From Bacilli bacterium (lineage in GTDB: Bacteria > Bacillota_I > Bacilli_A > RFN20 > CAG-826): a stretch of DNA of 33,374 nt. Shown here piece by piece: positions 1-29,643 of this stretch. The position numbers and the translations under genes were made by a program. The notes beneath the pieces were generated by a model, which was not told the DNA's origin, searched no databases, and worked only from the letters and a program-made list of their open reading frames with translations. The stretch covers positions 81,658 to 115,031 of the forward strand of contig JAGCDH010000010.1 of the NCBI GenBank assembly GCA_017651165.1. The letters run 5' to 3'. Positions within the stretch are counted from its first letter, which is position 1; each line of letters starts with the position of its first letter.

Positions 1-1049
1 AATGTAAAGATGTTATCTTCAGTTTTCTTTGGAATGATATATGTGACCGAACTCATATCGCAGTAATAATCTTTGAAAGAGATATATGAATCATAATCAT
101 AGTATTGGTTAGTAAAATATGAATGTTTCATATATTTAGTGGTTACTTTACCGCCATCATTTAAGAAGAAGTCATCATTAACGTTATCGCTTGAAAGGAA
201 CTTGTTGCTCCAAGCACTCTTAAAGTAAAGGGTCGAGAAGAGATATAAGACAGTATCAGGTCTTAATCCTAAAAACCCTTTATCGATGAAGTGATCGTCA
301 TTAACCGCTTTATTGACCCACTCCACCATCTTATTAGCGTTAGTTTTGAAATCGAGTTGATACGCTTCGCAGTATAAACTTGTTAGATAGTCCACATAAC
401 TAGGAGAATAATCAAGACTATTCGTAAAGAAAGCCGCGTTTTTGATTTGTGTCGTCGCATTCTCATCCACGAAAGAGTTGGCCTTCATAATCTTTTCATA
501 GAATGTCACTCTATTAGTTTCATCTAGGCCTAATAGATTATTTAATCTATCCTTTAAATCATCTCTTGATACAGAGGCTGTCATTTCGTTTAAAACTGAA
601 TATAAACCGACAGCACAATAAGACATATTGTCTTCTTTGGAAGTATCTACTAAGGAGTGGTATGTGAGATTAGTGAAATTGCTATAAGCATCATTCTCTT
701 CTTCGCTTATATCACTTAGAAGTGGATGGTTTAGGTTAGGATATTGCACATCGTTTAATCTTTCAAAAGTGTTTGATTTAGCAATTTCAATTTCATTGAC
801 GCTATATCTTCTTCTAGCGAGTTTAACGCTGTCAGACTTTGGCGCAAGCATCATCACAGAAAGCGGAATTGCGGCCACCACTAAAACCAAAGCCAAACCA
901 GCAGAAGCAAAGATCAATCCTTTGTGTAAAGGTCTCATTCTATGTCTGATATGTGGTTGATTGCTTTCTAATTGAGTGACATCAAAAGAAAGCTCAACGT
1001 TATTAGCCTGTTCAAAATCCTTTTTGAATTGTTCTTTAAGTTTTTTCAT
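1..1049 (-). CDS. Membrane-anchored serpin, candidate anti-sigma partner (3' end off window)
   Basis: 349 codons are visible; the C-terminus, including the reactive-centre loop, lies beyond the window edge. Residues 1-44 are a charged cytoplasmic segment, about 45-68 form one membrane helix, and from about 120 the protein resembles the serpin fold. Serpin-like blocks are IKNAAFFTNSLDYSPSY near 202-218, LDF at 232, WVN at 244, LYLFSTLYFKSAW near 268-280 and SSVTYIIPKK near 333. Serpins are suicide inhibitors of serine or cysteine proteases. The start is fixed by GGAGG and an ATGA overlap with the sigma-factor stop, so the two are translationally coupled. One-helix topology directly downstream of an ECF sigma gene is what anti-sigma factors show; that role is inference. 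The serpin fold is fairly sure, inhibitory activity cannot be judged without the loop. Confidence 0.82.
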   Translation of the reverse strand, partial: MKKLKEQFKKDFEQANNVELSFDVTQLESNQPHIRHRMRPLHKGLIFASAGLALVLVVAAIPLSVMMLAPKSDSVKLARRRYSVNEIEIAKSNTFERLNDVQYPNLNHPLLSDISEEENDAYSNFTNLTYHSLVDTSKEDNMSYCAVGLYSVLNEMTASVSRDDLKDRLNNLLGLDETNRVTFYEKIMKANSFVDENATTQIKNAAFFTNSLDYSPSYVDYLTSLYCEAYQLDFKTNANKMVEWVNKAVNDDHFIDKGFLGLRPDTVLYLFSTLYFKSAWSNKFLSSDNVNDDFFLNDGGKVTTKYMKHSYFTNQYYDYDSYISFKDYYCDMSSVTYIIPKKTEDNIFT

Positions 1050-1579
1050 AAGACACTTCCTCCATAATAGTCACGAAGTTTCTTAATTCCGCGTTGATAT
1101 TTAGATGAGACTTGGGATGTGGTTAAGCGGTTAGATTCTGCGATTTCTCTAAAAGAGAAGTCATAGAGGAGATGTAATACTAGATAATGATATTCTTCTT
1201 CATCTAGAATGTCTTTGAACTTCTCGAGATAGACGGAGACACCGGCTTGATCATCCTTTCCCACCATATCATCAGAATAAGGGAGATTTCTTTTTTCTTG
1301 GTAATAACGGTTTATCGCTAGATTCTTCGCGGTCACAAGCAAGAAGTATTTAAGCTTGCTTTCGTTCATGAAATTCCTGCGATTTTCATACATTCTAAGA
1401 AATGTTTCGTTAACGATGTCTTTAGCCTCTTCTTCGCTTTTGATGATGTCAAAAGAAACGTAATAGACAAGGTAACGATATTTCTCGAAGATGATATTAA
1501 AAGAAGCGTTCATCTCATCGTCATAAGGTGAACAGAGGTTTTTAATAACCGAATAACCAATCTTTTTTTCCATCTCCAT
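1046..1579 (-). CDS. ECF-family RNA polymerase sigma factor
   Basis: 177 residues, the normal size for an ECF (group 4) sigma factor. Region 2 is about residues 28-95 (YRYLVYYVSFDIIKSEEEAK, then NETFLRMYENRR and AKNLAINRYYQEKR). Region 4 is about 125-172, with the helix-turn-helix around FSFREIAESNRLTTSQVSSK and the closing GIKKLRDYY. It would direct RNA polymerase to a small regulon in response to an envelope signal. The start has no clear ribosome site; a second ATG two codons in is possible. It begins a two-gene unit with the serpin downstream and follows the tRNA-Leu terminator after an AT-rich gap. ECF factors often activate their own promoter, but I could not pick a convincing -35/-10 pair in that gap. 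Confidence 0.88.
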   Translation of the reverse strand: MEMEKKIGYSVIKNLCSPYDDEMNASFNIIFEKYRYLVYYVSFDIIKSEEEAKDIVNETFLRMYENRRNFMNESKLKYFLLVTAKNLAINRYYQEKRNLPYSDDMVGKDDQAGVSVYLEKFKDILDEEEYHYLVLHLLYDFSFREIAESNRLTTSQVSSKYQRGIKKLRDYYGGSVL

Positions 1580-26600: not shown

Positions 26601-28072
26601 ATCTTATCTGTGATATCAGTAATTTCCACAATCTTTTTTGGAAGTGGACAACCAGGATTGATTAAGATGTCGTATTCTTCAGTCACTAAGCCATGTTCAA
26701 CTTTTACAGCGCCAAATTCGATAATCTTATCATAGGCACTGCTTAAACCAGTTGTTTCTAAGTCGAGAACAACATAGCTGGCACGAGTTAATGGGGTACG
26801 TACTGGATTCTTTATATATTTCAATTGGTCATCGACCATATAAAATTCCACACCATAAAGCATCTTGATATTGGTTTTTTCTTCCGCTGCTTGGGCATCT
26901 GGATATCCTTGAACAACAGCGTGGTCAGTAATGGCCATAGCGGTATGACCCATGGCTTTTGCGTATCTCGCATAGTCGATCATATGCGTAATACCATCTT
27001 GCGTGGACATATTCGAATGTAGGTGAAGTTCAACACGCTTCTTTTCGCTGGTATCTTTTTCGACTTCATCTGGTGGAAGTAAATCGATAAAGTGGGCTTT
27101 AACCGCCATTGATTTATTGAATTCATCCCAATATGCAGCGCCTCTAACTCTGACATTAGTGCCCCACTTTTGCATCTCTGCGACAAGGGCGTCATTGATT
27201 TGGGAGTTTTGATAGCAGTTGGTGTAAATCGCCCCACCATCATCGTCAAATAAACCGATGTTTAATTTCTTACGATCACCGTATTCATTTATTTCCACAG
27301 AAAAGACTTTCGCGGAGAAGTCAACATGGTCACTATTGCGCGTAATATTATCGATGATATCGACTGGTTCATAATTACCACGTTTATTTAAACGTGCTCT
27401 TTCGCGGTCACGCGCCATTTCTCGAGCGTTTTGGCGCATCATCTTCATCATTTCATCTTCGGTTTCTTCATTGAGCTGTTGCTTTTCTTTAGCAATCATT
27501 TCCTCAACTTCACTACGGTCATTGATTTGACGAGCGGCGCTTTCTTCTTCAATTTCTTGTTCGACGACTTTTTCGACTTCTTTAACAATCTTACGCATTT
27601 CCGCTTTGGAGATTTCTGGGCCTTCATCAGGTTTGACTTCTTCAACAATGGAGAACTCATAGTTTAAGAAATCTAAGAAGTCTCTAAAGTCCTTCATGAT
27701 TTGTTCATATTGGGCTTTTTCTGCATCGTTAGCGTAAATCACTTTCAAGTAATTTTCATCACTTGTATCTAACTCTAAGTTATGGGGAATTCGATATAGC
27801 GTTTGATACCAATCCTCAAAGAGCTTGACTAGATCATTCATATTTGGTCTTACTAAGTAAGAGAATCTGATTAAGTATGGATATGTAACGTTATTTAAAG
27901 CATCTTGGAACTGTCTTAATAAGTGATATTTCCAAGGAGTCTTTTTGACAATCATCATATCGATTTGTTGTGGCTTGAAACGGTTTCTTCCGACCATTTC
28001 AAAATCAATATCAAAATCATCGATATTTTCGATATTTAAATGCTTTAAGAAGGATACCATTTTATCTGTCAT
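23612..28072 (-). CDS. polC: DNA polymerase III alpha subunit, PolC type
   Basis: 1486 residues, normal for PolC, the leading-strand replicase of low-GC Gram-positive bacteria. An N-terminal domain and charged linker (about 1-235) precede the OB fold (about 245-330). PHP follows (VELHLHSNMSTQDG near 347-360). The 3'-5' exonuclease is inserted in PHP, with DLETTG (Asp437, Glu439). The polymerase core has GSRGSVGSSFVATMSG, a four-cysteine zinc site (YRCPKCKHLEW, KKCPVCGEE), PDIDLNFPG and KLDLLGH. The tail shows the helix-hairpin-helix region (DLADMGVLDGL). The start overlaps the rseP stop by ATGA, with GAGG upstream. Confidence 0.98.
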   Translation of the reverse strand: MTDKMVSFLKHLNIENIDDFDIDFEMVGRNRFKPQQIDMMIVKKTPWKYHLLRQFQDALNNVTYPYLIRFSYLVRPNMNDLVKLFEDWYQTLYRIPHNLELDTSDENYLKVIYANDAEKAQYEQIMKDFRDFLDFLNYEFSIVEEVKPDEGPEISKAEMRKIVKEVEKVVEQEIEEESAARQINDRSEVEEMIAKEKQQLNEETEDEMMKMMRQNAREMARDRERARLNKRGNYEPVDIIDNITRNSDHVDFSAKVFSVEINEYGDRKKLNIGLFDDDGGAIYTNCYQNSQINDALVAEMQKWGTNVRVRGAAYWDEFNKSMAVKAHFIDLLPPDEVEKDTSEKKRVELHLHSNMSTQDGITHMIDYARYAKAMGHTAMAITDHAVVQGYPDAQAAEEKTNIKMLYGVEFYMVDDQLKYIKNPVRTPLTRASYVVLDLETTGLSSAYDKIIEFGAVKVEHGLVTEEYDILINPGCPLPKKIVEITDITDKMLENQPTIQEALPKIVNFIGDSILVTHNAEFDISFLQEALKNNGMPQLTNPVIDTLALSRYLFPDSRYHSLGSLCRNMEVVYKEDEAHRANYDAKVLNDVWQPMIALLTKQNHNLTHADLANLETTFANVKHVRPTHIVALAKNKEGLKALYKLVSYSHIDYYFDVPKVPRREVEKLRENLIIGSACFNGEVFRTACNYNNDVLKKVMEFYDYIEIQPLENYSYLVNMGEMSDEQLKTYLLDIVRCAEEIGKPVCATGDVHYVTKKQKVFRDVYISAKGIGGVPHPLNPYARSRMPAFENPDQHYRSTDEMLKCMSFLGEEKAYEVTVTNTNMIADMIEQMKPVPNDHLYTPTIENCDNMLRDMCFNKAHELYGDPLPEFIQNRLERELNGIISNGYSVIYYIAHKIIKKANEDGYIVGSRGSVGSSFVATMSGVTEVNPLPPHYRCPKCKHLEWTSETMPEYRSGYDLPNKKCPVCGEEMVHDGQDIPFETFLGFNADKVPDIDLNFPGDYQARAHDYTKVLLGENNVFRAGTIETVAEKTAFGFARGFLERKFKSEGMSDEDAVKALNAYPKAKIHFLASGCVDVKRTTGQHPGGIVVIPNDHEVYDFTPIQYPADDMDANWKTTHFDFHSIHDTILKLDLLGHVDPMALKMMCDLTGINIQDIPMNDKKVLSLFSSAKALGMEHDYTNAKTGALLLPEFNTEFVRGVLEETNPKTFSDLVIISGLTHGTGVWNGNADELIKAKTATLQQVIGCRDDIMTYLISKEIPSNIAFTIMENVRKGKGLKEEYVQMLRAKKVPEFYIESCNKIQYLFPKGHAVAYVTMAVRVGYFKIYYPLEFYATFFTVRSKQYDIQTMIKGKDAIISKIEELRTRQRVSNEKLSPKEQEQLKTLINALEMVQRGYKFSNIDLYRSQASDFVVDYENKALIPPFITLDNLGESAGVSVVEARKEGEFFSKEDLLRRTKLTSTNVQDLADMGVLDGLNESDQLSLFDF

Positions 28073-29643
28073 AAGAGCATCCTCACAAAGACATATCTAA
28101 AGAGATCTTTAAAGACCACCACCATCATTAACGATAATAATAAAGCGATACCGATAAGTGAAACGATGTTTTTGACTCTCTCTGGTATTTTCTTTCTGGT
28201 ACCGGTTTCTACGCCTAAGACGAGTAACTGCCAACCATCTAATCCTGGGAATGGGAAGAGATTAAAGATTGCTAAGTTAATGGAGATGAAACCCCAGTAA
28301 TATAAGAATTTACCAAAACCAAAGTTCTTTAAAACGTTCGTGGTTTCAAATCCCACGGCGACAATACCACCGATATTTTCCCAAGCGGAAGCACTGGTGA
28401 ATAAGCCACCCACCGCTTTAAAAAGCATTACTGAGCTTTCACCAAAGTCGGTGAAGGTGTGTTTAACGATTTGGCCAAAGTTATAATGGAATCTTCGATA
28501 ATAGATAGAGCAACCAAATGGTTGAACTTGGCCTTCTTCTTGGTTGATTGTAATAGGAACAACTACATCATCAACTAGGCCACCTTTTGCCCCTTCCACT
28601 TTTCTTGTTAAATGGATGGTCGCAGTGTTAAATGTTGGTGAAACAAACTTTGAAAAATCAGGCACGTCATACTTATTTTCGTATTGACAGTAATTAACAT
28701 GACCACCTGTTTCCCATTCAACTGGGACATTACTATGTAACACAACACCTGGTTTTCCTTCGTTAACTTTTTCAATGACTTTTTCTAATTCAAGACTTTC
28801 AATTTTTAATCCCGCGTAAGTGGACTTATAATCAAGCTTTTCAGGATCAAACATCTCAATGGAATAAGAGGTGATAACGTTGTTATCTTTTAATAATTTA
28901 AAAGCCCTATCGGCGTTATAAGAATCGTTAGGAATATAAATCGTTACATTGGTGTATCCATCAATTGGGGTGATTTTATATAAACCAATGGATTCTTCTT
29001 TGAGTTCATAGAAGCAGATGAATTCTTCTAAACCGAGGTGCTTGAAACTATTTAATGTAGCAAAGCTAAAACATGTCGCGTATTTCACAGAATCATCATT
29101 ATTAAATGTGGTTTGATTATCTGCGAAATAGAAGAGCGATTCTTTTTTACTAAGAGGATCTTTGTAAGATAATGGTTCAAATTTGACATAGTCACCATCG
29201 GATAAGCCTGTTACTGATTCCGCGACGTTAAGGTGATTAATGTAGTCCATTCTTTCTTGGACAAAGCAATTACTCGCAAAGAAGAACACTAAGGCAAGCA
29301 CTGCGTTCATAATGACGCCTGCGGAAAGGATGATTGCTCTCTTCCATGGCTTAATGTTATTTAATGAACGGGATTCATCAACGGTGACGCCTTCTGGTAA
29401 AGGCACTCCTTCTCCATACATGGAGACATAACCACCGAATGGAATACCTCTAATGGTGAACTGAGTCTCACCGTTTTTTCTTTTATGCTTAAATAAAGCA
29501 GGACCCATACCAATGGAGTATTCTAAGCAGTACACATTAAAGGCTTTCGCCGCTGCTAAATGACCGAGTTCATGGATGATAATCAAAATTGAAAGGAAGA
29601 CTAAAAAGAGAATAATGTATAAGATAGTTGTTAACACTTGCAT
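28069..29643 (-). CDS. rseP: RIP site-2 metalloprotease, RseP/RasP family
   Basis: 524 residues, about 75-100 more than E. coli RseP or B. subtilis RasP. The zinc motif HELGH is at 24-28 in the first membrane helix, and the second active-site block FPFPGLDGWQ is near 460. Between them lies an extracytoplasmic region of about 300 residues that should include a PDZ-like domain. The enzyme cuts membrane proteins such as anti-sigma factors and leftover signal peptides inside the bilayer. It starts 1 base after the dxr stop, with AAGGAGAA in the dxr 3' end, and overlaps polC. It is a candidate for activating the ECF sigma factor at the other end of the window, but no link is shown. Confidence 0.94.
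   Translation of the reverse strand: MQVLTTILYIILFLVFLSILIIIHELGHLAAAKAFNVYCLEYSIGMGPALFKHKRKNGETQFTIRGIPFGGYVSMYGEGVPLPEGVTVDESRSLNNIKPWKRAIILSAGVIMNAVLALVFFFASNCFVQERMDYINHLNVAESVTGLSDGDYVKFEPLSYKDPLSKKESLFYFADNQTTFNNDDSVKYATCFSFATLNSFKHLGLEEFICFYELKEESIGLYKITPIDGYTNVTIYIPNDSYNADRAFKLLKDNNVITSYSIEMFDPEKLDYKSTYAGLKIESLELEKVIEKVNEGKPGVVLHSNVPVEWETGGHVNYCQYENKYDVPDFSKFVSPTFNTATIHLTRKVEGAKGGLVDDVVVPITINQEEGQVQPFGCSIYYRRFHYNFGQIVKHTFTDFGESSVMLFKAVGGLFTSASAWENIGGIVAVGFETTNVLKNFGFGKFLYYWGFISINLAIFNLFPFPGLDGWQLLVLGVETGTRKKIPERVKNIVSLIGIALLLSLMMVVVFKDLFRYVFVRMLL

Follow-up and report, generated by a model that had tools for sequence, protein, structure and literature searches.

A membrane-anchored serpin in the anti-sigma position: a probable one-way, protease-sensing gene switch in gut and rumen Bacilli

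Introduction

What does a serpin do when its gene overlaps that of an extracytoplasmic function (ECF) sigma factor? The question is raised by one end of a 33,374-nucleotide stretch of Bacilli DNA (G000:C5:81658-115031, hereafter the window), in which an ECF sigma gene runs into a gene for a membrane-anchored serpin. The known roles of serpins are those of inhibitor, carrier, and storage protein, and the family is most familiar for the protease traps of animal blood. We propose here that the two genes probably form a one-way switch that senses proteases. Comparative sequence data give good support to one part of this proposal, the role of the serpin protein as a serpin-type ECF anti-sigma factor; protease sensing through its reactive loop and release of the sigma factor by intramembrane proteolysis are further steps that we infer. 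In the open-access literature searched, no anti-sigma factor described as having a serpin sensor was found. Cleavage of the loop is known to change the shape of a serpin irreversibly, and non-inhibitory serpins usually exploit this change (PMC8233489).

Results

The sigma gene (positions 1046-1579; all window features named here lie on the minus strand) encodes a 177-residue protein with sigma2 and sigma4 regions, which scores 57.7 bits on the NCBIfam ECF model TIGR02937 (cut-off, 42.9) and matches Sigma70_r2 with an E value of 4e-10, its Sigma70_r4 score of 21.7 bits lying slightly below the cut-off of 24.1. The presence of regions 2 and 4 in a protein of fewer than ~200 residues places it among the ECF factors, and it is the sole ECF sigma found in this 79%-complete genome, the other sigma-70 protein being SigA-like. 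The next open reading frame (ORF) starts at 1049 within the sigma stop codon, so that the two genes overlap as ATGA. Its window part (1-1049) covers the first 349 of 495 residues; the gene is cut only by the window edge and extends to C5:81228, and the whole gene, complete at L003:9220-10707, supplies the missing 3' part with the reactive loop.

A preliminary description of this stretch had recognized the ATGA overlap and had read the second protein as a 44-residue cytoplasmic start, one membrane helix, and a serpin-like outer domain in the place of an anti-sigma factor. The overlap is confirmed at 1049, and hydropathy and the PF00079 match agree with that layout: a cytosolic segment (residues 1-44; 918-1049), a transmembrane helix (residues 45-67; 849-917; residues 40-67 in the model of an ortholog), and a serpin domain from residue 121 onwards (window part, 3-689; E 2.7e-21). 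The whole protein matches PF00079 with 145 bits over profile positions 2-370 of 370. The AlphaFold2 model of the ortholog L104 has a serpin fold with a predicted local distance difference test score (pLDDT) of ~90 across the serpin body, and its top matches in the PDB (Foldseek, VIA-align) are serpins only (Z ~39), cleaved or relaxed forms first. The whole-domain match and the fold, the latter taken from the ortholog model, make the protein a member of the serpin superfamily.

The pair is far from unique. Serpins were found in 81 of the 196 genomes sampled in the family, and at the loci fetched they fall into two kinds: lipoproteins of ~420-450 residues without a sigma gene, and sigma-linked serpins of ~450-520 residues, encoded directly downstream of an ECF gene and having a cytosolic start and one helix. 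After removal of duplicates, 53 sigma-serpin pairs were counted, and two further ones (L076 and L077) had been missed through start-codon choice; a larger tally of 89 linked rows, in which near-duplicates remain, was set aside. All pairs share a cytosolic start of 35-60 residues, one membrane helix, and the serpin, and the two genes overlap or nearly abut in dozens of genomes. Pairs also occur in other families of the same order (f2, L262-L264; f3, L255-L258; f4, L097) and, outside the order, in family f27 (L294, L295), so that the distribution covers several families and two orders within one class of gut and rumen Bacilli. The named relatives are metagenome-assembled genomes (MAGs) from rumen, omasum, faeces, and gut, of hosts that include ruminants, horse, and rabbit, and are filed as Erysipelotrichaceae, Bacillales, or Bacilli. 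The conserved pairing, whose absence from relatives would have spoken against the preliminary description, is thus widespread.

Is the position itself that of an anti-sigma factor? Many ECF genes among 106 genomes of the family have no serpin neighbour, and 40 loci were fetched from places not previously known to be serpin-linked. In nearly all of them the ECF gene is followed, mostly with an overlap, by the gene of a protein that has one helix, 35-60 residues ahead of it, and an outer domain of another kind, and more than 30 of the ECF genes without a serpin neighbour have a partner of the same layout with a different ectodomain. Five partners among the 40 loci are diverged serpins (L173, L179, L180, L189, and L193) and a sixth, L174, is serpin-like by eye. 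The cytosolic motif NPYxKK...FPLWxKI is common to serpin (L091, L167, L173) and non-serpin (L170, L175) versions. Since most ECF partners share the same position and layout, this arrangement is general for the group, the serpin being one of several sensor domains. The window protein itself has the layout of one-helix ECF anti-sigma factors, namely, a gene directly downstream, a cytosolic N terminus, one helix, and an outer domain. As separate observations, strongly diverged serpin-like domains stand in the anti-sigma position at L167, L173, L180, L189, and L193, several of them unlisted by the Pfam genome search, and the one-helix proteins encoded after the ECF genes of L181, L182, L183, L194, L196, and L198 have outer domains reaching ~750 residues; a Pfam scan of L183 and L194 returned only a Big_3 domain in L194, and these large domains are possibly further sensor types.

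The pairing does not trace to a single clade of serpins. The hypothesis of one clade for all sigma-linked serpins is rejected by the approximately unbiased (AU) test (p = 8e-52), the starred branches of the serpin tree force at least four changes in sigma linkage, and the partner sigmas fall into at least three sigma lineages. Being polyphyletic, the sigma-linked serpins have gained the pairing repeatedly or lost it repeatedly, two histories that the serpin tree is unable to separate. Moreover, in the three main-clade serpins that have no sigma gene the cytosolic segment is missing as well: L109 is a lipoprotein, L059/L111 has a different short start, and L268 has ~7 residues ahead of the helix. 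Altogether, the general position and layout of ECF partners, the recurrence in unrelated serpin and sigma lineages, and the joint loss of sigma and the cytosolic segment argue that the serpin protein is probably an anti-sigma factor, and synteny, layout, recurrence, and segment loss sustain the anti-sigma position first given to it.

Two parts of the protein outside the serpin domain stand out. The cytosolic segment, with the motif LKxxFKxDFE...LSFDxxxLExN, is cytosolic by layout and is proposed as the sigma-binding region on the basis of its sequence, its conservation, and its loss in sigma-less relatives. The juxtamembrane segment (residues 91-104; 738-779; SNTFxxLNxVxYP) is conserved at 2.83 bits per column, above both the serpin body (2.35) and the linkers on either side of it (1.5-1.9). 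Because sigma-less relatives keep the latter segment, its role may lie in the serpin itself no less than in signalling.

Ahead of the sigma genes in the window's clade (1582-1612 in the window) lies a motif of constant spacing, CGACAAAA-N13-TTGTTTTATT, which was found upstream of sigma in 15 of 16 relatives; it is proposed to be an autoregulatory ECF-type promoter. The CGACA-to-TTGT distance is 16 bases, a spacing that resembles that of ECF promoters. The window's genome holds two perfect copies (~0.0004 expected by chance), one being the sigma promoter itself and the second of which (L216:4151-4181, G000:C22) lies 20 bases before the gene of a 190-residue lipoprotein (L216:4201-4773) that is almost confined to the genus and has no Pfam match. 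In the relative G010, the second perfect copy (L234:1501-1531, G010:C79) lies 28 bases before a lipoprotein serpin gene starting at 1560, which is cut by the contig end (L234:1501-1838, promoter included) and whose start matches that of L008, a serpin with the inhibitor-type hinge GVEAAAYT. Hence, to judge from this promoter copy and the L008-like start, the switch appears to turn on an inhibitor-type serpin in G010. As a minor observation on the same promoter, only 3 bases separate the motif from the annotated sigma start on its 3' side (window, 1571-1590), for which reason the message may be nearly leaderless or translation may begin at the second ATG (1573).

Several findings weigh against the proposed switch. 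No Pfam anti-sigma domain was found in the 44-residue segment or in any of the 32 members scanned. In an AlphaFold2 prediction of an in-frame read-through fusion of the L115 sigma and serpin, the cytosolic segment has a pLDDT below 65 and makes no confident contact; this fusion is no evidence either way, because the alignments were unpaired and the linker is only two residues long. No copy of the promoter was found before the lipoprotein serpin gene of the window's genome, and the link from sigma to an induced serpin is therefore not general. Finally, the main-clade hinge, EDG[ST]IVKSV, departs from the inhibitory consensus ExGTEAAAA. The hinge is among the best-conserved parts of the protein (2.9 bits), the remainder of the reactive loop being variable. 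The published consensus of inhibitory hinges is GTEAAAA (PMC8233489); the window protein, with EDGTIVKSV at P17-P9, retains P17 E, P15 G, and P14 T and has V-K-S-V at P12-P9, so that it does not match the inhibitory hinge consensus. These hinge readings come from aligned sequences. Protease trapping by the main clade may, as this departure suggests, be slow or absent and inhibition weak, and the idea of an ordinary inhibitory serpin is weakened. Loop insertion could still take place, since P17, P15, and P14 are retained and the main clade has only small or beta-branched residues (T, V, S, T, A) where the loop faces inward. Residues 441-448, where the reactive loop begins, are paired with the preceding strand in the L104 model, as in the inserted form; the model is compatible with loop insertion, which a static model cannot itself show. 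Counted 14 residues from P15, P1 would be Lys in the window protein and, in most of its relatives, Ala, Gly, Ser, or Thr.

The non-canonical hinge of the main clade is also an argument for an alternative, an anti-sigma factor whose serpin-like domain senses a ligand (a peptide, bile, or a wall compound) and not a protease. Steroid binding by the hormone-binding serpins relies on the serpin shape change. The strong divergence of some serpin-like domains that occupy the anti-sigma position (L167, L173, L180, L189, L193) fits this idea, as does the usual exploitation of the stressed-to-relaxed change by non-inhibitory serpins (PMC8233489). However, other sigma-linked lineages (L012, L056, L098, and L040) keep a canonical hinge, the inward-facing positions of the main clade are small or beta-branched as described above, and the scissile region is rich in Ala, Gly, Ser, and Thr, like elastase-type sites. 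We regard ligand sensing as unlikely.

Quite improbable, in our estimation, is that the serpin is an output, i.e., a membrane-anchored inhibitor co-induced by a sigma factor that is controlled otherwise. Most serpins of the group are lipoproteins of the cell surface whose hinge is of the inhibitory type, one of these appears in the sigma regulon of G010, and co-transcription alone would explain the shared promoter. Nevertheless, the sigma-linked serpins have a conserved cytosolic segment that is absent from the lipoprotein serpins and is lost along with sigma, they occupy the position of the one-helix proteins that follow nearly every ECF gene of the family, and the hinge of the linked main clade is less inhibitor-like. 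Nor is another anti-sigma gene adjacent: the preliminary description had allowed for a proper one just past position 1, and beyond the serpin gene there is none, a NUDIX hydrolase gene adjoining on that side. Chance adjacency or an assembly artefact, for which one could cite that most genomes are MAGs and that the window ends within the serpin gene, is ruled out for practical purposes by the recurrence of the same overlapping pair in independent assemblies, many hosts, and many genera.

Discussion

We propose a model in which the serpin protein is the protease-sensing half of the switch. At rest, its residues 1-44 would tether the ECF sigma factor to the membrane, in the manner of other one-helix anti-sigma factors, and outside the cell the serpin domain would offer its reactive loop to proteases. 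A protease that cuts or engages the loop would cause it to enter sheet A (the stressed-to-relaxed transition), and loop insertion, possibly together with the trapped protease, would alter the conserved segment between serpin and membrane. This segment (residues 91-104) could dock on the serpin body in a tengpin-like manner and be freed on loop insertion, exposing a site-1 cut. An M50 site-2 protease would then cut the helix and free the sigma factor, which would transcribe its own operon and a few surface proteins, including, in one relative, a secreted serpin with an inhibitor-type hinge. A candidate for the intramembrane step is the RseP-like M50 site-2 protease of the window (28069-29643; PF02163, E 1.3e-51), whose gene sits in the ordinary housekeeping cluster pyrH-frr-cdsA-dxr-rseP. 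Sigma binding by residues 1-44, the loop-driven signal, and protease inhibition by the induced serpin are all steps that we infer.

The closest known systems each share part of this arrangement. SigV-RsiV of Bacillus subtilis couples an ECF factor to a one-helix anti-sigma factor that is a lysozyme receptor and is controlled by regulated intramembrane proteolysis (PMC4183432, PMC6066255). The gene order and layout are alike, and the outer domain of RsiV itself binds a host-defence hydrolase. In contrast, the outer domain here is a serpin, and no Pfam match to the RsiV outer domains (DUF4179/DUF3298) was found among the 32 members; furthermore, the sensing would be irreversible and the ligand a protease. 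In SigI-RsgI of Clostridium thermocellum, the sensors bind polysaccharides and RseP cuts RsgI within its helix (PMC12203970). There too the sigma gene is followed by that of a one-helix anti-sigma factor whose outer sensor domains are exchangeable, whereas here the sigma is an ECF factor, the RsgI N-terminal domain was not found, and the sensor is a serpin. The signal-peptidase-dependent ECF anti-sigma factor RsiP of Bacillus thuringiensis is degraded in two steps (PMC8844934) but belongs to a beta-lactam response, with neither a protease sensor nor a serpin. As for the fold, the group T serpins (siropins, miropin, tengpin, and the Bifidobacterium serpin) come in several cases from gut or oral bacteria, and tengpin is kept in its native state by an N-terminal tail bound to the serpin body (PMC8233489). 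These share the serpin fold and are described as free inhibitors with no tie to a sigma factor or a cytosolic segment, unlike the sigma-linked serpins.

If the model holds, the serpin's shape change would have found a new use, in the outer half of a transmembrane gene switch, and gut and rumen bacteria would directly sense host, protozoal, or rival proteases. This would suggest why serpins abound in these small genomes, and a single loop mutation should uncouple sensing from sigma release. Our analysis suggests that the bacteria of this group use serpins for feeling proteases, beyond blocking them. In a broader hypothesis, on which we are evenly divided, serpins were recruited more than once as transmembrane protease receptors, with the irreversible stressed-to-relaxed change serving as a one-way signal, followed in some species by a secreted inhibitory serpin, so that one fold would supply a sense-and-respond pair.

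Some neighbouring genes and other serpins of the group deserve mention. A tRNA-Leu gene (1712-1796) lies upstream of the sigma gene. About 5.5 kb past the serpin gene (L003:3-3731; G000:C5:72000-75730), two secreted proteins with HExxH motifs are encoded, one of which matches peptidase M6; they are possible examples of own proteases that a serpin could face. Lipoprotein serpins occur in tandem arrays of three at L069 and L070. Family f17 (L301-L305, L308-L310) has membrane-anchored serpins of 520-640 residues, with 15-70 residues ahead of the helix, and no ECF gene was found upstream of them. Lastly, an ORF at L307:1-1580 (G503:C38) combines a serpin-like beginning with an HExxH peptidase-like end (HECGH) and is possibly a serpin-protease fusion.
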